Of a stretch of DNA of 42,711 nt, positions 21,959 through 35,166 are shown in pieces. Numbering within the stretch: the first letter of the stretch is position 1; the number at the start of each line of letters is the position of its first letter. The notes under the pieces are model-generated. The model did not search any database. It was given only the letters and a program-made list of their open reading frames with translations, and was not told the DNA's origin. The stretch is taken from NCBI RefSeq assembly GCF_012911975.1, contig NZ_SMDQ01000051.1:1-42711 (forward strand), written 5' to 3'. A program made the translations under genes and the position numbers. Origin of the DNA: Nodosilinea sp. P-1105. GTDB lineage: Bacteria; Cyanobacteriota; Cyanobacteriia; Phormidesmidales; Phormidesmidaceae.

Positions 21959-22570
21959 CTACTGCCATACATAGATCAAAATAAACAAAATAATCCAAAT
22001 CACATCGACAAAGTGCCAGAACAGGGAGGTGGCAATCACCCCCACTTCACCGTCCTCATAGTTGCCCGGAATAAATGAGCGACCCAGCATTACCGCCATC
22101 ATCAGGACCCCTGTCAGCACATGCAGTCCGTGAAAGCCGGTCAACAAGTAAAAGGTGCCGCCATAGAGACCATCGGTAAAGCCAAAGGATAGACTGGCCC
22201 ACTCCACCGCCTGACCGTAGAGGAAGAAACTACCCATGGCCATGGTCAACAGCCACAGGGCCCGAAAACCCCAAAGATTTTCTTTTTTGAGATAACGCTC
22301 GGCAAAATAAATCACAAAGCTGCTGGACACCAGCACGATGGTATTAATCAGGGGTTCTCGTACCTCTAGTCCCTCCACCCCGGCGGGGAGCCAGTCGGCA
22401 GTGGTGGTTTTGTAGACGATGTAGCCGACAAAAAAGCTGAAGAAGATCACGCTTTCTGACAACAGAAAGATAATGAAACCCACCAGGCGGTGTTCGCCTT
22501 CTTCGTGGTGGTCGGCGGCATGGACAGTAGCCGCCGTATTCAGGTTTTGATCCAGGTTAACTGAGCTCAC
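21959..22570 (-). CDS. ctaE: Terminal oxidase subunit III (ARTO type)
   Basis: Subunit III stabilises the haem-copper oxidase core in the membrane. The 203-residue product has five helices with the family landmarks EEGEHRLVGFIIFLLSESVIFFSFFVGYIVY, INTIVLVSSSFVIYFAERY, LTGFHGLHVLTGVLM and SLFWHFVDVIWIILFILIYVWQ. The start is GTG at 22570, overlapping the ctaD stop by 14 bp, so translation is probably coupled. It is the last gene of the cluster DUF2231-DUF2231-ctaC-ctaD-ctaE. Assignment to the alternative oxidase follows from the subunit II of the same operon. Confidence 0.95.
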   Translation of the reverse strand: MSSVNLDQNLNTAATVHAADHHEEGEHRLVGFIIFLLSESVIFFSFFVGYIVYKTTTADWLPAGVEGLEVREPLINTIVLVSSSFVIYFAERYLKKENLWGFRALWLLTMAMGSFFLYGQAVEWASLSFGFTDGLYGGTFYLLTGFHGLHVLTGVLMMAVMLGRSFIPGNYEDGEVGVIATSLFWHFVDVIWIILFILIYVWQ

Positions 22571-24245
22571 TCGCTAACTCCGTAGACGCCATTTGCTGTG
22601 CAATCAAAGGTTCACTTTTGCCGTAGCCGTAGGGTTCTGAGACCACGGTGGGAATCTCGGCAAAGTTTTCGTGGGGCGGGGGCGAAGCTACCAGCCACTC
22701 CAGACCGATCGCCCGCCAAGGGTTAGCCGGTGCCTCATCCCCCAAAATCCAGGAGCTGATCATGTTCAGCAAAAAGGGCAACACCGATACCCCCAGCAAA
22801 AACGCCCCAATGCTGGCGATCACATTCCAATAGGCAAACTCGGGATCATAGGAGGCCACCCGCCGAGGCATCCCCTGCAAGCCCAAGGGGTGCATCGGCA
22901 AGAAGTTGAGGTTTACCCCAATGAAGGTCAAAACGAAATGGAGCTTGCCCAGGCCTTCGTAGTACATGTGACCCGTCATCTTGGGAAACCAGTGGTAGAT
23001 AGCTGCGTAGATCCCCATCACGGCTGCCCCATAAATCACATAGTGGAAGTGGCCCACCACAAAGTAGGTATTGTTGACGTGAATGTCAAAGGGCACTGCC
23101 GCCAGCATAATACCGGTAATGCCGGCGAACAAAAAGTTAACCAGGCCACCCAGGGCAAACAGCATCGGCGTGGTTAGGCGAATTTTGCCCCCCCATACAG
23201 TGGCTACCCAGGCAAAAATTTTCACCCCCGTAGGCACCGAGATGGTCATAGTAGTAGCCATAAACAGCATCCGCATCCAGCTGGGGGTGCCGCTGGCAAA
23301 CATGTGGTGTACCCAAACGATCGCACTCAAACCCGTAATCACAAAAGATGACACCGCCACAAATTTGTAGCCAAACAGTGGCTTGCGGGCATACACCGGA
23401 AACAACTCTGAAAACACCCCAAACACGGGCAAAATAATCACATACACCGCTGGGTGAGAGTAAAACCAAAAAAAGTGTTGGTAAAGCACCGGGTCACCGC
23501 CAGTGGCCGGGTCAAAGAAGCTAGTTCCCACCGTCAGGTCAAACAGCAGCATTACCGCCCCCGCCGTTAAGGCTGGTAGGCCAAACAGCTGGATGGTTTG
23601 TGCTGCTGCTACCGTCCAGCAGAACACCGGCATTTTGAAAAAGGTCATGCCTGGAGCTCGCATCCGAATGATGGTGGTCACGATGTTCACCGCCCCCATG
23701 ATGCTGGAAATGCCGGACAAGGCTACCGCCAAAATCCATAGGAACTGACCATTGATGAGATTGCCAGTGGGGTTTTGCAGGCTCACCGGCGGGTAGGCCC
23801 ACCAGCCCGACTGGGAAGGCCCGCCGGGCACCAAAAAACTGGCCATCAGAATCGTGCCAAACACCGGCACCATCCAGAAGGCAACGGCATTCAGCCGGGG
23901 AAAGGCCATGTCCCGTGCCCCAATTTGTAGCGGCACCAGATAGTTGGCCAGGCCATTCAGCACCGGGAACGTCCACATGAACAGCATGATGGTGCCATGC
24001 ATGGTGAACAGGGCGTTGTACACCGTGCGATCGACCAGGTCCGCTTCCGGGGTAATTAATTCCCCGCGCATCACCATGGCCAGAAAGCCACCCACCAGGA
24101 AAAACACAAAGGCGGTAACGATGTACTGAATGCCAATCACCTTGTGGTCAGTGCTGAAGGTGAAAAAGCGCCACCACTTTTCTGGTTCGCCTGGCTGCGG
24201 CTCGTTCTGGCGATAGTAGGGGGCGGTAATGGAGGTTTCAGTCAT
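22557..24245 (-). CDS. ctaD: Terminal oxidase subunit I (ARTO type)
   Basis: Subunit I reduces O2 to water at a haem-Cu_B centre and pumps protons. The 562-residue product has the 12-helix core with metal ligands H83 (TMHGTIML), H264 in YSHPAVY, H313-H314 (WVHHMF), and H399/H401 (VGHFHYV). The helix VI motif is YSHPAVY, not GHPEVY. The proton-channel Glu is absent and the Tyr-Ser pair takes its place, the A2-type pattern also usual in cyanobacterial oxidases. The ATG at 24245 lacks a Shine-Dalgarno; its leader is C-rich on the mRNA because of G-rich repeats on the plus strand. Confidence 0.96.
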   Translation of the reverse strand: MTETSITAPYYRQNEPQPGEPEKWWRFFTFSTDHKVIGIQYIVTAFVFFLVGGFLAMVMRGELITPEADLVDRTVYNALFTMHGTIMLFMWTFPVLNGLANYLVPLQIGARDMAFPRLNAVAFWMVPVFGTILMASFLVPGGPSQSGWWAYPPVSLQNPTGNLINGQFLWILAVALSGISSIMGAVNIVTTIIRMRAPGMTFFKMPVFCWTVAAAQTIQLFGLPALTAGAVMLLFDLTVGTSFFDPATGGDPVLYQHFFWFYSHPAVYVIILPVFGVFSELFPVYARKPLFGYKFVAVSSFVITGLSAIVWVHHMFASGTPSWMRMLFMATTMTISVPTGVKIFAWVATVWGGKIRLTTPMLFALGGLVNFLFAGITGIMLAAVPFDIHVNNTYFVVGHFHYVIYGAAVMGIYAAIYHWFPKMTGHMYYEGLGKLHFVLTFIGVNLNFLPMHPLGLQGMPRRVASYDPEFAYWNVIASIGAFLLGVSVLPFLLNMISSWILGDEAPANPWRAIGLEWLVASPPPHENFAEIPTVVSEPYGYGKSEPLIAQQMASTELASELS

Positions 24246-24716
24246 AGGGAGCGTGAGGGGTAGGGGTGGGTGGGTGGATGGGTAAGGGGGTGGATGGGAT
24301 GGGGGAGATGGGGAAGATGGGGAGGTGAAGAAGTGAAGGGGTGGGGGAGGTGGGGGTGGATGGGTGGGGAGGGATGGGGAGGGTGGAGAAGGTGGGGGGA
24401 GACGTAGGGGCGGACCTGGGTGTCCGCCCTAGCAGGGAATGGGGAACGGGGGGGTGAGTTTTGAGTTTTGAATTTTTTAATTGAGCCTTGAGCCGTAGGG
24501 TGGGTTAGGCGGTCGGAGTTGGGGGCTGCGGCCAGTCAATTAGAAGCCGCCGTAACCCACCTTTGGGGGGATGGCGCTATTAGTTAGTTCCTTTCGCAAG
24601 CTTTGATGTGTCTAGGTTTTCCTTTTCTGCCTTCATCCTTCTGCCTGCTTCGCACGGGCTGCGCCCTACATCCTTCTGCCTTCATCCTTCTGCCTTCATC
24701 CTTCTGCCTTCCGTTA
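24246..24716. repeat. Repeat-filled spacer inside the cta operon
   Basis: The 471 bp between ctaD and ctaC hold no gene. From about 24256 to 24400 there are degenerate G-rich units (GGTGGATGG and GGGGGAGATGGGGA types, as at 7.2 kb and 33.8 kb). At 24408-24429 GGGCGGAC-CTGGGT-GTCCGCCC forms an 8-bp hairpin. At 24450-24480 there are GAGTTTT units. At 24669-24710 CATCCTTCTGCCTT is repeated three times exactly, ending six bases before the ctaC stop codon; a fourth variant lies near 24625. Typical ctaC-ctaD spacers are much shorter. Confidence 0.85.
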
Positions 24717-25640
24717 CTAGGGTCTGGGAACGGGGAGGTCTGGGGAGCCGGGAAAGTTGACCATTGGGGTGGGGGCGGGGGTGACGGTTTTCCAGCCAGG
24801 GCGGCTGTCACGATTTTCGACTCTGACCTGGTACTCGGCGTAGGAGGGGTTGAGACCAGGCTGGGGAGCTTGGGCCGCCGCCTGGTTTAGCCACTGGCGG
24901 TAAGCGTCGGTGGACTCAACCACCACGTTGGCCTGCATGGCGGCAAAATAGGTGCCACTATATTCTGAGTCGCGCAGGCGATAGATGCCCTCGCGGATGG
25001 GGGTGAACTCAAAGTCCACCTGGCGACCGGGAATCACATCCTGCTTCACCCGAAAAGCGGGGACATAAAAACCGTGGAGCACATCTTCGGAGGTCATGGT
25101 CAACTTGGCGCGGGTGTGGTTGGGCAGGTGCAGCTCGGTGCTGGTGACCCCGGCTTCGGGGTAGTAAAATTCCCACACCCACTGGCGGGCACGCACCTCA
25201 ATCGGCTCCGGCTCGGTGGGCCGCTCAGCGTCTAGGGGGGCGGCGATGGCCTCTCCCATCATGTGTACATGCTCCATGGGGCCAAGGATGCCCATCTGGT
25301 CATAGATCTTATAGCTATAGCCTGCGATCCACACCACCAGCACCAAGGGAATGGCGGTCCAGACAATCTCCAGGGTGAGATTACCCTCAATCGGTGGACC
25401 GTCTCCTTCGTCATACTTAGCCGCCCGCTGGAACAGGACCGAGTATAACAACGTGCCAGCCACCCCCAAGAAAATGAAGGTGCCCAGGGTGGTCAGAAAG
25501 CTGAAGAGATTGTCCACCAGTAGCGCCTCTTCAGAGGCTGGCTCGGGCATCCAGTGGTAAGCCTGCTGTCCTACCCAAATACTGATCGGGGTCATAATGG
25601 CGGCTAAGAGCAGCAATCTGAGAATGACACGGACCTTCAT
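24717..25640 (-). CDS. ctaC: Terminal oxidase subunit II without Cu_A site (ARTO type)
   Basis: Subunit II normally takes electrons from cytochrome c at a binuclear Cu_A. The 307-residue product has two N-terminal helices (about 5-22 and 45-70, plus a third hydrophobic stretch 90-108), then the cupredoxin domain with VRARQWVWEFYYPE and DVLHGFYVPAFRVKQDVIPG. The Cu_A loop should read C-x-E-x-C-x3-H-x2-M. Here it is D224-S-E226-Y-S228-G-T-Y-F232-A-A-M235: both Cys and the His are lost, while spacing, Glu and Met persist. This is diagnostic of the cyanobacterial alternative oxidase (CtaCII/Cox2-type), thought to use quinol. H189 is retained. The DUF2231 gene ends 3 bp upstream of its start. Confidence 0.95.
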   Translation of the reverse strand: MKVRVILRLLLLAAIMTPISIWVGQQAYHWMPEPASEEALLVDNLFSFLTTLGTFIFLGVAGTLLYSVLFQRAAKYDEGDGPPIEGNLTLEIVWTAIPLVLVVWIAGYSYKIYDQMGILGPMEHVHMMGEAIAAPLDAERPTEPEPIEVRARQWVWEFYYPEAGVTSTELHLPNHTRAKLTMTSEDVLHGFYVPAFRVKQDVIPGRQVDFEFTPIREGIYRLRDSEYSGTYFAAMQANVVVESTDAYRQWLNQAAAQAPQPGLNPSYAEYQVRVENRDSRPGWKTVTPAPTPMVNFPGSPDLPVPRP

Positions 25641-25643
25641 GGG

Positions 25644-26267
25644 CTAGATTCCCCCCGGCAACAGCATATTCAACATCGTCAGGTCTTCACCGGCCCGCAG
25701 CAGCTGGTTGGCACTGATGTGGACCCCAAATTCGGCCGCCAACTGTGCCCCCAGGGTGCCATGGGCAAACATTAAGGTAAACACGCCTAGACCAGCTAAC
25801 AAGTAAGACCATTGCACCTGCCGGGCTCGGTCTTTGCGCCACACGTAGCGCTGGAAACCTCGCCAAATGGCCATGCCAGTAATCAAGGCCAGTAGCACCA
25901 CCCCACCCACGCCGTGCCACAGCATCGTTTCCAGGCTCTCCAACCCCCAGGCGCTGACCCCGTCGCTCAGCGGTTGGGCTAACAGCATTTCATAGAAGCC
26001 CGCCGCCACCGTCGGAAACGTGACCACTGCCGCCGCCACCATATTGAACCAACCCACATCAAAAAAGTTGGATCGGGTTGCTGGGATAGCTAAGAACTTA
26101 AACACCCGCTTTTCCAAGGGAAACAGCGCCCCAACAATATCAAAGCTAATGGCGACAATAAACAACCCTAGGGTCAAATGCACCAGGTTGGGATGGATGG
26201 GCAGATAATAGGGCAACCCATTGGGGCCCAGTTGCTCTCCCAATTGGTCAAGTAAATCAGGATTCAT
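25644..26267 (-). CDS. DUF2231 integral membrane protein (second of pair)
   Basis: DUF2231 proteins are four-helix membrane proteins of unknown function; some have putative haem or metal His residues. The 207-residue product shows YYLPIHPNLVHLTLGLFIVAISFDIVGALFP at the start, a helix around 70-95 (WFNMVAAAVVTFPTVAAGFYE), LWHGVGGVVLLALITGMAIW, and SYLLAGLGVFTLMFAHGTLG. HPNLVHLTLG and the LWHGVG and AHGTLG His are the conserved family positions. The start is ATG 26267, sharing TGATG with the stop of the upstream DUF2231 gene (a GTG at 26270 is also possible). It is 3 bp before ctaC, so it is cotranscribed with the oxidase. Confidence 0.9.
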   Translation of the reverse strand: MNPDLLDQLGEQLGPNGLPYYLPIHPNLVHLTLGLFIVAISFDIVGALFPLEKRVFKFLAIPATRSNFFDVGWFNMVAAAVVTFPTVAAGFYEMLLAQPLSDGVSAWGLESLETMLWHGVGGVVLLALITGMAIWRGFQRYVWRKDRARQVQWSYLLAGLGVFTLMFAHGTLGAQLAAEFGVHISANQLLRAGEDLTMLNMLLPGGI

Positions 26268-26767
26268 CACAGCACTCCGTCACGAATTGCTTCCACCACC
26301 TCTACGGTGTGCAGGCCATAGATCCAAACCAACTTATCGCCCAGGTAAGTCTGGAAGAAGACAAGGCCGGTCAGAAATACACTCGCCCCTAGGTAGGCCA
26401 TGGGAATGCTCTTGGGATCCTTTAGGCGCAGCACGTAGCGCCAGCCGGTAATGGCGGCAATAATCCCTGACAATGACCAACCTAGGATTGTGTGTAGGTT
26501 CAGGGTAGACTCGGCGGCAGGGACGTAGGGCATCGCCAAGCCCGCTTCAATCTGGCCAAAAATGACCGCAATGAAAATGGAAACAGTGGCAAAGCATAGA
26601 TTCCACCAACTGACCTCATAGTAGCGAGGGTTCTTGGTGAAATAGCCAATTACATCGCACACGAAGGCGAACAGGGCCATGGCAATGACGAAGTGCACCA
26701 CGATGGGATGAATGGTATCGGGATAAGGAAGATTGTGTTCATTGAGGGGGGGCAGGTACTCAAACAC
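26267..26767 (-). CDS. DUF2231 integral membrane protein (first of pair)
   Basis: The 166-residue product is a shorter paralog of the gene below it: PYPDTIHPIVVHFVIAMALFAFVCDVIGYF carries the same HP-x-VVH-x3-A motif, followed by helices around 52-72, 88-108 (LHTILGWSLSGIIAAITGWRY) and 118-136. The C-terminus ends YGLHTVEVVEAIRDGVL. GTG is the start at 26767 with AGGA upstream. It heads the operon DUF2231-DUF2231-ctaC-ctaD-ctaE. Link to the Cu_A-less oxidase suggests a role in quinol or haem handling or in assembly, an inference from position only. Confidence 0.9.
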   Translation of the reverse strand: MFEYLPPLNEHNLPYPDTIHPIVVHFVIAMALFAFVCDVIGYFTKNPRYYEVSWWNLCFATVSIFIAVIFGQIEAGLAMPYVPAAESTLNLHTILGWSLSGIIAAITGWRYVLRLKDPKSIPMAYLGASVFLTGLVFFQTYLGDKLVWIYGLHTVEVVEAIRDGVL

Positions 26768-26980
26768 GGGTGTCCTAAGGGGTTAGCGGAGTGAACAATA
26801 AAGTGGTTCAGGGTTACTACTCGGCACTGATGAGCTTAATGGAGATGGTAACCTGGGCTACCAGCAGCCTGAGCATAACAAACCCTTCTTTATAGGGTAA
26901 GTATCCCAGCTATCAATCGCCAGGGGAATTGAGATATTGGCCAAATTCTGCCATTGCTGAATTGCAGACTCTGTACAATT

Positions 26981-28336
26981 TCATTCATTCATATTCTTGT
27001 ACGTCGCCACCGCCGAGGGTGAGATCCGGTTCAGGTAGCGGAAGATCCAGTATTTGAATACCGTATCCAAAATTACGGGGAAGGTGGCGATAAACAGAAA
27101 GATAAAGTCGCGGTTGGCGGGAAAGCCCAGGTGCCGCGATAGCCCCTCTAGCAAAATCTCCCAGCCGTGGGGCGAGTGGAACCCGACAAAAATATCAGTG
27201 AATAAGATAATGATGAAGGCTTTGGCGCTATCGCTGAGACCGTAGACAATTTCGTCCATAAAGGATTTGAGATTGGCTACGTCTTGCTTGCGGGTGACCA
27301 GCACTAGGGCAAAGGCCCCAGCGGCCAGGATGTCAGCAAAGACATTTTTGACGGCATTGGTGCTGCGATCGCGATATTCGTCTTCAATGTCCGTCGCTTT
27401 GGCCCGCACCTGTTGTTCAATGCTCAATTCCGATAGGGGTGGGGCTTTGCCAATCAGTACCTCAAACCGCAGCCGCTCTTCAAATTGCTGTAATTCATGC
27501 AGGGCCTCTTCTTCCATCTCCAGATTCAGAAACACATCGGCCTGGTCGTCCACCCGTACCCGTTCCACAATCGGCCCGACTAAGAAAGCCTTGGTAAACT
27601 GCTGGGTGAGCAGAGGCACAATAATCAGCAGCAGTAGAAACCGAATGGCGGCGGTGGTTTTCGACTTTGATTTGCGAAAACTCTTAACCACCTCCTCCTC
27701 TGCATTGGGATCTAAGTCCTTGCGGATGCGGTCTACGGTACGCAAAATCGAGCGAGGTAAGACATTGGCGCGATCGGAGAGGGCATCGGGTCGGTTATCG
27801 TCATTACCATTGACCGCCCCCCCATTTTGTCCGCGCCGAGCTTGGTCCGCCTTAGCCCGCAGGACTCGGGTCGGTGAGGTGGGCTCGATGGCCACCTTTG
27901 CCCCATCGGTCAGGGTGATTACCCGCTGACTAGGCGCCTCCTGAGTGGCGTAACGGGCCAGTACCTCATCCACGAGCCGCAGCTTGCGTAGCACTAACGC
28001 CTGGCGGTCAACCACGTTAACGGTTAAATCGTCACGGGTGCCTGGCAGTTGCACCTCTGTCATGCGCGGCTCAGATCCCCGTATCACCGAGCGACTGGCC
28101 CGAAACTCAGCCATTCGTACTCGCATCAGGTTAAGGTATTTTTTCAACTCCCCCTCGAAATAGGTCATGGCACTGTTGCCATAGTTGCCATAGCGAGAGG
28201 AAATTGGATTGCCGCCAAAGTAATCTCGCTCGATTGCCTCAATGGTCTGAGCTGCTTCGTAGGCCTGGTTCAGCGCGCGTTCGGGGGTACGCAAAAACCA
28301 TTGCTGTATATTGCGAAAAAAGCCTGGAGTCTGCAT
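26981..28336 (-). CDS. pxcA: Light-induced proton extrusion protein PxcA (CemA family)
   Basis: PxcA is needed for light-driven Na+-dependent proton extrusion by cyanobacteria; its plastid relative is CemA. The 451-residue product has a soluble N-terminal half (FFRNIQQWFLRTPERALNQAY, ERDYFGGNPISSRYG, YFEGELKKYLNLMRVRM) and a C-terminal CemA-type membrane part: AIRFLLLLIIVPLLTQQFTKAFLVGPIV, LVTRKQDVANLKSFMDEIVYGLSD, KAFIIILFTDIFVGFHSPHGWE and a final FIFLFIATFPVILDTVFKYWIFRYLNRISPS. The frame extends to TTG 28351, but ATG 28336 gives the usual start. It diverges from lysC. Confidence 0.93.
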   Translation of the reverse strand: MQTPGFFRNIQQWFLRTPERALNQAYEAAQTIEAIERDYFGGNPISSRYGNYGNSAMTYFEGELKKYLNLMRVRMAEFRASRSVIRGSEPRMTEVQLPGTRDDLTVNVVDRQALVLRKLRLVDEVLARYATQEAPSQRVITLTDGAKVAIEPTSPTRVLRAKADQARRGQNGGAVNGNDDNRPDALSDRANVLPRSILRTVDRIRKDLDPNAEEEVVKSFRKSKSKTTAAIRFLLLLIIVPLLTQQFTKAFLVGPIVERVRVDDQADVFLNLEMEEEALHELQQFEERLRFEVLIGKAPPLSELSIEQQVRAKATDIEDEYRDRSTNAVKNVFADILAAGAFALVLVTRKQDVANLKSFMDEIVYGLSDSAKAFIIILFTDIFVGFHSPHGWEILLEGLSRHLGFPANRDFIFLFIATFPVILDTVFKYWIFRYLNRISPSAVATYKNMNE

Positions 28337-28645
28337 CCAACCATTAGCCAATAAGGGAGTATGGGGATTAGATTAACACCCCTCGACTCTAGCCCAGCAC
28401 CCAGTGCTGGATGGTTCTCAGGGGCGCAGCCTGATACAGTAAAGGCTCTGATTTTGGAACCTTAGATCAGTGCCGCAGACAGTGCCACAGATTAACGATT
28501 TCGGTCTAAATTTAGAGACTAAATCTGCTTGTCGGTTGGGTACTCTCGATGAATCATTGCCCTGTGCGCACCCTAGGTTAGGTTGACGGGCAGGCACGGC
28601 TTGAGAGCAGCGTTTTTTGACCATTGCAGGAGGACAGCACACACC

Positions 28646-32569: not shown

Positions 32570-33781
32570 TTAGTGTAATTCCTCTGGTGGCATTAGGGAA
32601 TTGGCGGCAAGCAACTGATGGTAAACGGTTAGGGTGCGCTGGGCGATCGCAGTCCAGTTATAGTGGCAAACAGCATATGCTTGGGCATTTTGCCCCCGTA
32701 TGTGGCGTAGAGTTGGATTTTTCAGGGCTTGGCGTAAAGTATCTACTAGGTCAAGCTGAGTTAAGCCACAAGTCCAGCCCGCCTCGGCGGCGGCCACCGC
32801 TGGCCAGAGGTCAACTCTCTGAGAAATCACCACCGGTAGAGCAGCAATCATGGCTTCGGCCACGGCAATGCCAAAGTTTTCGTAGTAAGAGGGTAAGACA
32901 AACAGGGCGGCAGATTGCAGCAGGGCAGCTTTGGTCGGGCCGGTGACAAAGCCGGTGCAGGTGGTGCGATCGCCCAATGAAGAGGCTGCCAGGCGATGGA
33001 CGATATCGTCTGCATAGACCGGATCCTGGGAATTGCTCCCGGCTAGAACAAAGTGAAACGGCAACCCTTCAGCTGCTAATTGGTCTAGGGCGGGCAGCAG
33101 CAAGTCTAGCCCTTTTTGGGGATCTAGACGCGACAGGTATAACACTATGGGGTGATCCTGGGGAATCCCCAAAGCGGCCAAAATGCTGTTTCGCTCAGCC
33201 ATAGCTAGGGCAGGCAGGGGAGTGACGCCCACGGGGATCACCACGTCAGAGCACCGGGTCCCAAACCGCTGGGCTCGCTCAGCTTCTAGGGGGCTGGTGA
33301 AGTGGAGTGCCGCCGCCCCAGCGATGTTAGGCCGCTCTAGCCAATCACCATAGAGGCGCTTTAGCTGTGACTTTTTGGCCAGGTCCGCTGGGTCAAGGGT
33401 GCCTAGGGGGCGCAATACATAGGGTAAGCCCTGCCGTCGGGCCACGGTGGCAGCAGCGGTGCTTACCGGTGAAAACAAAGCGTGGATATGGGCGATGTCA
33501 TAGGTGGGGCCATGCCGCCACAGCCAAGTCAGTAACCCTGGAGAAAATTTGTAGCGCCCCCTGGGGATACAGCGAAAGTAGTGAACTGTGTAGTTGTCCA
33601 CTGCCACAGGTTGGTTGAGGGGTACCGTTAGCGGCGGTTGACCGCTATCGCCATTGGCGGTGGTGGTGAGGATGGTTACCTCTGCCCCCGCCGTGGCTAG
33701 AGCTTGGGACAGGCCACGTACCATTTGGCTAGGGCCGCCGTAGACGGGGGAGATGGCGGGGATGATTTGGAGGACGCGCAT
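32570..33781 (-). CDS. Family 4 glycosyltransferase
   Basis: A GT-B, retaining glycosyltransferase likely to act in exopolysaccharide or glycolipid assembly. The 403-residue product begins [20 protein letters not shown]. The C-terminal donor-binding half has [20 protein letters not shown] and the E-x7-E element in [20 protein letters not shown]. The frame extends to 33994, but the extra 71 residues translate the 8-bp repeat (HPPIHPST...) and the GATTTTG repeat, so they are excluded. A second GT4 gene lies 212 bp upstream on the same strand, separated by these repeats. Confidence 0.92.
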
Positions 33782-33806
33782 GGGGGGAGTGGGGAGGTGG
33801 GGAGGT

Positions 33807-33928
33807 GGGTGGATGGGTGGATGGGTGGATGGGTGGATGGGTGGATGGGTGGATGGGTGAAGGGGTGGATGGGTGAAGGGATGGATGGGTGGATGGGTGA
33901 AGGGGTGGATGGGTGGATGGGTGGATGG
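33807..33928. repeat. 8-bp G-rich tandem repeat (GGTGGATG)n
   Basis: About 15 units of GGTGGATG with AAGGGGTG variants fill the spacer between the two GT4 genes, with more degenerate G-rich sequence from 33783. Three units make 24 nt, so it stays open in every frame and produces spurious long ORFs. The same unit recurs near 24.26 kb and at the right edge (42.64 kb, as the complement). Confidence 0.95.
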
Positions 33929-33932
33929 GGGA

Positions 33933-33964
33933 GATTTTGGATTTTGGATTTTGGATTTTGGATT
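33933..33964. repeat. Heptanucleotide short tandem repeat (GATTTTG)4
   Basis: Four exact copies of GATTTTG (33933-33960) plus GATT. Heptanucleotide repeats of this kind (STRR) are typical of cyanobacteria. Related GAGTTTT/GAATTTT units occur near 24.46 kb and 42.53 kb. Confidence 0.9.
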
Positions 33965-33993
33965 CTTCTCTTTTCGTTTTTCAGATATGTACA

Positions 33994-35166
33994 TCAGGTG
34001 ACGCCCAGGTGGTGGTAGAATGCCAATTGCTTTTGGGCCAGGACTGTGTTGGTGTAATGGGCTAGAACCCGATCGCGCCCCTGTTGGCGCAAGCTAAGAC
34101 GGTCTGCGGGGTTGGTCATCAGTCGTTGCAGGCGATCGCTGAGGGCTGCTGTGTTTCCTTCCGGAAAGATCAGTCCAGCAGTGCCGATCACCTGGGGAAT
34201 TTCACCACAGTCAGAGCCAATCACCGGAACGCCAGCGGCCATGGCTTCAATCAGGACATGGCCAAATTGCTCTTTCCAGCCGGGGGCGGTCAGGGTAGCG
34301 GCGGTATGGCTCGTTTCTGATGGTAGGACCAGGGTGTGCATCAGGTTCAGGTAGCGGGGGACGGCGTCATGGGGCACACGGTCTACCCAGCGGACTCGGT
34401 CGGTGAGGCCAGCGGCAGCTATCTTAGCCTTCAGGGTTGTTTTGAGGGGACCATGGCCGACCAATAGCCAGATCCAAGGGTGCGATCGCAGACGGGTGAG
34501 CGCATCTCCCAGGGTCAGCAAACCCTTCTCGACCACAAACCGACCCACATAGCCCACCACAAAGGCATCGTCAGGAATCTTGATCTGTCGGACCAGGGCA
34601 GGTTGGGGGTGAGGACAAAATTGCGCCTCATTCACCCCTAATTGAGGCATGACCGCCGTGGGGCCACTGTAGCCCCGCTGGCGCAGGATGTCTGCCCCAG
34701 CCTGGTTACCGGCAATTAGCCCATGGGTATGTCGGAGGTTATAGGCCTCTAACTGGGCGACGGGAAAGGTGAGTTGGTAGGGTAAATTCCACCAGGTGAA
34801 CAGCAGGTTTTTGGCCCCCAAGCCCAGCCAGCGATTCAGGGTAATGGTTTGGGCATAGGCCAGGGACTTGGCCCCTTGCTCTACCTGAATAATTTGGGGA
34901 CGAAACTGACGCAGCAGCCGCACCAGATCTGGACCAAAGCAGAGCAGACCTTGATGATTTTGGCTCAGGTGCCCCAGCGGTAGGCGACGAAAATTGCCGT
35001 CATTGATAGTAGTAGGACGAAGAACATGGTGTTGTACGCCGCGGGATTGCCAGCGCTTCGGCACTCCAACAGTGACCTGGATACTAGGGTCAAGTTGGGT
35101 GAGCGATCGCAGTTTCTCGCAGTTCAGATCAATCACATAGGTATGGCTGATGACCAATAGGCGCAT
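33994..35166 (-). CDS. Family 4 glycosyltransferase
   Basis: GT-B fold, 390 residues. It begins [19 protein letters not shown] and carries [41 protein letters not shown] and the donor-site [21 protein letters not shown] (E-x7-E). The N-terminal opening (ISHTYV...NxEKLRxL) is seen in cyanobacterial enzymes of hormogonium or exopolysaccharide clusters, but the acceptor is unknown. It is paired with the downstream GT4 gene across the repeat array. Confidence 0.92.

Follow-up and report, generated by a model that had tools for sequence, protein, structure and literature searches.

Two DUF2231 membrane proteins, called D1 and D2, very probably form a dedicated partnership with the CuA-less cyanobacterial oxidase ARTO. 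Their genes lie in a 42,711-nucleotide stretch of DNA from Nodosilinea sp. P-1105 (the window), where they directly precede the genes for the three ARTO subunits. The same arrangement recurs at nearly all ARTO loci that we inspected in other cyanobacteria, and was not found at any of the sampled loci that encode a CuA-containing oxidase. Each protein carries a set of invariant histidines, and we tentatively favour a role for the pair in the entry of electrons into the enzyme.

Organisation of the operon in the window

The genes are arranged on the minus strand in the order D1-D2-ctaC-ctaD-ctaE, with the following features:

26267..26767, minus strand: D1, a DUF2231 membrane protein and the first gene of the operon (166 aa; open reading frame and PF09990)
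26693..26710, minus strand: HPxxVH motif of D1, H20-P-I-V-V-H25, at the start of TM1 (alignment; positions computed)
25644..26267, minus strand: D2, a DUF2231 membrane protein (207 aa from ATG; open reading frame and PF09990)
26178..26195, minus strand: HPxxVH motif of D2, H26-P-N-L-V-H31, at the start of TM1 (alignment; positions computed)
24717..25640, minus strand: ctaC, the CuA-less oxidase subunit II of ARTO (PF00116, PF02790; no CuA motif)
22557..24245, minus strand: ctaD, ARTO subunit I (PF00115; haem/CuB ligands present, bo3 quinol-site residues absent)
21959..22570, minus strand: ctaE, ARTO subunit III (PF00510; 14-bp overlap with ctaD)

The Pfam scores against PF09990 are 141.7 bits for D1 and 127.4 bits for D2, compared to a gathering cut-off of 26.4. 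D1 begins with a GTG codon that has an AGGA sequence on its 5′ side. For D2, an alternative GTG start exists at 26270, one codon before the ATG, which would yield a protein of 208 aa (25644-26270). The D2 residue numbers used here (H26, H31, H119 and H184) are counted from this GTG. At the D1/D2 junction, GTGCTGTGATGAAT, the TGA of D1 and the ATG of D2 have one base in common (TGATG), and the end of D2 is separated from the start of ctaC by 3 bp (TAG-CCC-ATG). A first-pass annotation of this DNA had described both the overlap of two DUF2231 genes and the 3-bp gap, and the PF09990 matches and junction sequences agree with it. The annotation had also regarded the pair as coupled to the ARTO genes in general, which holds only in part. 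Specifically, ctaC and ctaD are 471 bp apart, and therefore the tight coupling involves D1-D2-ctaC on the one hand and ctaD-ctaE on the other.

Within the spacer between ctaC and ctaD (24246-24716) there are repeats of the GCAGAAGGATGAAG type as well as a low-complexity tract rich in C. Elsewhere in the window, an open reading frame at 32570-33994 that appears by eye to code for a glycosyltransferase-like protein has THPPIHP-type repeats in its N-terminal ~70 residues, which are probably a C-rich microsatellite read into frame. No sigma-70-like promoter was found upstream of D1 when positions 26700-27000 were scanned. A terminator-like site is present on the operon strand at 26898-26882 (0.3 expected by chance), and falls between D1 and pcxA. 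The latter (26981-28351) is the next large open reading frame upstream, is located on the same strand as D1, and encodes a proton extrusion protein of the CemA family.

Occurrence of the pair at oxidase loci

PF09990 is present in 78 of 244 cyanobacterial genomes, and the CtaC protein of the window was used to search 244 genomes drawn in the same way. This search defined a group of 68 ARTO-type ctaC genes from 58 genomes and 33 genera, comprising 67 matches at E ≤ 2.6e-74 and one gene in two pieces. Those pieces aside, the next matches have E values of at least 2.7e-59. Every one of the 58 ARTO genomes has the pair (at least two DUF2231 matches each), and inspection of all 68 loci revealed D1-D2 immediately upstream of ctaC at 64 of them. 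Because this gene order recurs at so many loci and across 33 genera, it is not a product of chance. L090, L093 and L103 account for three of the exceptions. They come from a single genus, one genome each, and here ctaC lies apart from the pair (L090/L091, L093/L094 and L103/L104). Retention of the pair in these genomes thus reflects more than mere linkage. The remaining exception, L039, has an ARTO ctaC with no adjoining pair, and two pairs are found elsewhere in its genome. At L108 the pair lies beside ctaC and ctaD remnants, and ctaD is broken in L056 and L101. A 401-aa frame in one genome (G077) was considered as a fusion of the pair and rejected, as the locus shows two open reading frames.

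A D1 profile gave 561 confirmed matches, and among the best 80 of these, D2 is present in all 80 and ctaC in 78. At the two loci without ctaC (L133 and L197), the contig ends there. Across the 244 genomes, the pair occurs in 58 of 58 with ARTO versus 2 of 186 others, both of which are cbb3-type cases (Fisher test, p ~2e-54, a value that is not an independent-sample probability because the genomes are related). The genomes that lack ARTO and carry two DUF2231 genes are G036 and G105, where the pair is cbb3-linked, and G056, which has two adjacent genes of the stand-alone type. There are 17 further genomes with one DUF2231 match each, and the match in G002 is below the cut-off. Genera g45, g47 and g62 each include genomes with both ARTO and the pair alongside another genome that has neither. 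In genus g15, two genomes without ARTO retain just one stand-alone DUF2231 gene each, and in genus g36, G105 is without ARTO and has the cbb3-linked pair.

For contrast, we assembled a chosen sample of control loci, consisting of 20 from the weaker CtaC group and one from the genome to which the window belongs, namely its conventional oxidase. The CuA motif is present at all 21 ctaC loci, and no DUF2231 gene was found at any of the 21 in the 8-10 kb covered per locus. A 22nd ctaC with CuA (L111) likewise has no D1 or D2 match at its locus. The first-pass annotation had held that its proposal would fail if pairs were equally frequent beside CuA-positive oxidases. The pair was found at 0 of 22 such ctaC loci versus 64 of 68 ARTO loci, and the proposal withstands this comparison. 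The window's own genome also contains a third COX1-family gene (L262:2283-4592, contig C1) coding for 770 aa, a length suggestive of a quinol-dependent NO reductase.

The claim that the pair goes with the CuA-less oxidase is upheld by these counts, but needs to be widened, since four cbb3-type operons contain the pair as well. At L112 (genome G105), a CcoN-like gene and a CcoO-like gene are followed by the pair and then by a Pyr_redox_2 gene. At 263 bits, the CcoN match at this locus stays below the cut-off for the family (583). A search with the L112 CcoN in 388 class-level genomes (E ≤ 1e-40) gave 10 matches. All four operons with a CcoN identity of at least 54% (in G105, G036, G261 and G344) have the order CcoN-CcoO-D1-D2, and in three of these a Pyr_redox_2 gene, which we read as NDH-2-like, comes after the pair. 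These operons (L112:1008-6135, L211, L228 and L229) demonstrate that the pair is not exclusive to ARTO. Their D2 proteins are 304-311 aa in length with a C-terminal extension of ~100 residues, and nothing resembling ctaC or ctaE was found alongside.

The pair is missing from the other six of the 10 CcoN-CcoO operons, which have ~40% identity, within the loci covered (3.5-4.3 kb in four cases, and 10.6 and 14 kb in two). No CcoP-like gene was noticed in the open reading frame lists of CcoN-CcoO operons with or without the pair, as judged by eye and not by family. Missing cytochrome c docking is therefore not always tied to the pair, and the idea that the pair replaces CcoP is weak.

D1 and D2 are inherited jointly with the oxidase operon. 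Among 59 complete operons, eight genomes have two each, and for all 16 of these operons the nearest D1 and the nearest D2 are in another genome and not in the sibling operon. For D1 of L107, the distance to the sibling equals the nearest distance at two decimals. The same pattern is seen for CtaC, CtaD and CtaE, except for L107 (CtaC and CtaD) and L041/L049 (CtaE). Distance correlations between subunits range from 0.78 to 0.93, but these follow the species tree and add no weight to the comparison of genomes with two operons. Mean pairwise identity over the 59 operons is 0.67 for D1, 0.64 for D2, 0.55 for CtaC, 0.74 for CtaD and 0.66 for CtaE, such that both DUF2231 proteins are more conserved than CtaC.

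Conserved residues and candidate roles of D1 and D2

Each of the two proteins in the window has four hydrophobic peaks. As the first-pass annotation had noted, both keep an HP-x-(V/L)VH motif (H20/H25 in D1 and H26/H31 in D2), and this feature proves to be distinctive within the phylum. The form H[P/A]xxVH is found in 140 of 140 D1, 144 of 144 D2 and 8 of 8 cbb3-linked proteins, and in 0 of 16 stand-alone DUF2231 proteins. In addition, H20, H25, H92 and H153 of D1 are invariant in 66 of 66 aligned rows (66 kept of 69 matches; L091, L094 and L112 scored lower and were set aside), and all four histidines are present in the D1 proteins of L091 and L112 too. In D2, H26, H31, H119 and H184 are invariant in 69 of 69 rows. 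A wider alignment of 140 D1 and 144 D2 sequences retains the same four histidines in each partner at 99-100%, and a TM2 Glu is conserved as well.

Lysine and arginine are concentrated in two of the loops. Mean K+R counts in D1 are 1.9 for loop 1 and 3.8 for loop 3, versus 0.1 for the N-terminal region, 0.5 for loop 2 and 1.1 for the C-terminal region. The corresponding values for D2 are 3.2 and 4.6, versus 0.3, 0.9 and 2.2. Given this placement of positive charge, the N- and C-termini of D1 and D2 and all four invariant histidines of each should face the p-side (lumen or periplasm).

Electron entry into ARTO calls for an explanation of its own. The motif CxxxCxxxHxxM is absent from CtaC of the window and from 67 other aligned ARTO CtaC proteins, and is present in 22 of 22 conventional CtaC proteins examined. 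We checked 61 ARTO CtaD proteins longer than 500 aa in E. coli CyoB numbering, leaving out shorter ones. The haem/CuB ligands (H106, H284, H333, H334, H419 and H421), K362 and RR481-482 are present in all 61, and D135 in 60. R71, D75, H98 and Q101, which we take to be the bo3 quinol site, are each kept in 0 of 61. The conventional CtaD of L111 is also without equivalents of R71, D75 and H98, and has Q at position 101. A review portrays ARTO as a bo3-type quinol oxidase whose subunit I receives electrons directly from PQH2 (PMC6616624). Because ARTO has neither CuA nor the quartet of bo3 residues, this description does not explain how electrons enter the enzyme. A quinol site of another kind may be present in CtaD.

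The explanation that we prefer, with slightly less than even confidence, is that D1 and D2 are the electron-input module of ARTO. The two proteins would bind each other and the oxidase, forming a dedicated two-protein membrane module and making ARTO a five-protein oxidase. On its His/Glu cluster, each DUF2231 bundle would carry either a plastoquinol site or a cofactor on the p-side, for which haem b is the likeliest candidate and another metal a possible one. Plastoquinol would be oxidised at the module and the low-spin haem of CtaD would receive the electrons, and in this manner the module would do the job that CuA and cytochrome c perform in a conventional oxidase. Counting against this explanation are the review's statement that subunit I is fed directly by PQH2, the six CcoN-CcoO operons that lack the pair in the stretches covered, and the ARTO ctaC at L039 with no pair next to it. 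The finding of D1 and D2 next to a cbb3-type core as well suggests a module that is portable between haem-copper oxidases. The more specific proposal of a portable quinol-oxidising input for both A-type ARTO and C-type cbb3 enzymes, with the p-side histidine clusters as the redox centre, is conceivable but doubtful.

Predicted models of D1-D2 have mean pLDDT values of 60.4 and 64.5. The D1 helices span residues 19-44, 48-77, 82-115 and 122-150, with block pLDDT values of 57-90 that are lowest at the p-side ends, and the second model gives D2 four helices matching those of D1. Foldseek returned no PDB match for the D1-D2 model at E ≤ 0.001, and the D1 profile found nothing among PDB chains at E ≤ 10. 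These models, whose pLDDT is too low for locating cofactors or an interface, resemble just generic four-helix bundles. For example, the D2 model aligns with the cytochrome b561 structure 4o6y (Z 10.4, rmsd 3.6, 142 residues, 14% identity), with unrelated helical bundles scoring alike. Similarly, the D1 model aligns with helices III-VI of COX3 (Z ~12-14, rmsd 2.0-3.3, ~130 residues), with designed bundles scoring equally high. A role for D1 and D2 as non-redox structural subunits, for example through packing on subunit III or by lending stability to a subunit II that has no CuA, would suit the tight coupling and co-inheritance of the genes and the likeness of D1 to COX3, although that likeness is within the range of any helical bundle. 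However, eight invariant histidines and a conserved TM2 Glu exceed the needs of packing, and the pair also accompanies a cbb3-type core beside which no gene resembling ctaC or ctaE was found. We consider a purely structural role distinctly unlikely.

Stand-alone members of the family provide a further point of reference. No oxidase matches were found at six stand-alone DUF2231 loci inspected, and at L110 and L116 a gene for a DUF2809 (PF10990) membrane protein lies near the stand-alone DUF2231 genes. A 17th stand-alone protein, from Paracoccus yeei, has an over-long start and contains HPLHAMAVHF, which matches HAxxVH. Within the phylum, the motif is thus a marker of the oxidase-linked pair, although the pair is not its sole carrier. 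When plasmids were searched, D1 and D2 retrieved cyanobacterial plasmids, and D1 also retrieved three P. yeei records, whereas a stand-alone DUF2231 query matched 126 records. We inspected eight among 40 listed of these 126, as well as one P. yeei record. In five of the nine (two from Roseomonas and one each from Shinella, Sulfitobacter and Paracoccus), a single DUF2231 gene is located on the opposite strand beside genes for oxidase subunits, CopD and an assembly protein. No oxidase is annotated near DUF2231 in the Azospirillum, Sinorhizobium and Pelagibacterium records, and one record is unannotated there. CuA is intact in three of the five subunit II proteins (Shinella, Roseomonas mucosa and P. 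yeei), one has His in place of the last Met, and in the Sulfitobacter protein CuA is lost. Pfam confirmed Caa3_CtaG and UPF0093 in the oxidase cluster of R. marmotae. In the alphaproteobacterial plasmid clusters L198, L232, L234, L235 and L239, the lone DUF2231 gene accompanies genes for subunit II, a long subunit I (~800-850 aa), CopD and an assembly protein.

The occurrence of single DUF2231 genes beside CuA-positive oxidases means that an association with CuA-less enzymes is true of the pair and not of the whole family. It points to a wider oxidase role for DUF2231 in general, and also keeps alive the reading of D1 and D2 as assembly factors. These would act from the p-side to supply subunit I with copper or haem, and would remain outside the finished enzyme, with the invariant histidine cluster holding copper or haem in transit. 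A p-side histidine cluster, an association with two different types of haem-copper oxidase, and the proximity of single DUF2231 genes to assembly-protein and CopD genes in the five records are all in keeping with this function. Yet the pair is absent from the 22 CuA-positive cyanobacterial loci, where CuB and haem must be inserted too, and operon-specific copies of both partners with translational coupling to ctaC are more subunit-like. On balance, an assembly function appears unlikely, but deserves serious weight.

Relation to known systems

The first-pass annotation had presented the pair as a candidate for an undescribed functional unit. The layout is in fact in print, as one paper includes the five-gene operon alr2729-alr2730-coxB3-coxA3-coxC3 (ARTO/Qox) of Anabaena PCC 7120 (PMC6616624). 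Two others place an NtcA-bound region upstream of alr2729 in the 'cox3 operon' (PMC3898017) and list alr2729 and alr2730 as hypothetical proteins (PMC4390870). Judging from operon position, these two are presumably DUF2231 proteins. The functional side of the claim stands, in that the portions of the open-access literature at hand contain no function for the D1/D2 pair or for DUF2231. Nor was any mention found in those portions of the contrast in CuA, the histidine signature, the absence of the quinol quartet or the link to cbb3.

Another study ties Fe(III) reduction to ARTO in Synechocystis and Prochlorococcus, and reports that a Synechocystis ctaD2/ctaE2 mutant is impaired in iron reduction and uptake (PMC10119275). 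D1 and D2 could accordingly connect ARTO with a different acceptor or donor on the p-side, for example in Fe(III) reduction, and their p-side histidines would be compatible with such a role. The pair is also present in cbb3 operons, however, and we consider this link very improbable. The single further neighbour identified near the operon is pcxA. Functions other than electron input, assembly or structure have, as a whole, a small chance of being correct.

Heterocyst nitrogen fixation (PMC6616624) and life in ocean water poor in iron (PMC10119275) have both been connected with ARTO. If the pair is indeed the entry point for electrons, then ARTO has five proteins, its three-gene versions are incomplete, and the DUF2231 family gains a respiratory role. 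If the portable-input proposal is true, haem-copper oxidases of two classes can use plastoquinol with no need for cytochrome c, CuA or a bo3-type quinol site, which would be an undescribed feeding route. Through the cbb3 link, the electron-input idea can be tested in a second enzyme.

Stand-alone DUF2231 proteins of the phylum share PF09990 with D1 and D2, along with histidines equivalent to H20 and H92. They differ in having HPxHP (16 of 16, versus 0 of 292 oxidase-linked proteins, where HPxxVH occurs), an Asp in place of the TM2 Glu in most cases, and a last histidine three residues earlier. Compared with bo3 of E. coli (cyoABCD), ARTO has the same haem/CuB ligands and K362 in subunit I, and CyoA, the bo3 subunit II, is CuA-less as well. 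Unlike bo3, ARTO is missing the CyoB residues R71, D75, H98 and Q101 from all 61 CtaD proteins, and the annotated cyoABCDE stretch of E. coli K-12 contains no DUF2231 gene. The cox3 operon of Anabaena PCC 7120 has the same layout as the five genes of the window, although the available text of that report assigns no function to the first two genes (PMC6616624), for which we propose the module described above. A cbb3-type oxidase is reported for Synechococcus elongatus PCC 7942 in a study that calls the function of cyanobacterial Cbb3 genes unclear (PMC13208690). This enzyme (RS01020/RS01025) differs from ARTO in being a C-type oxidase, and in four cyanobacterial CcoN-CcoO operons the oxidase genes are adjoined by the same D1-D2 pair.
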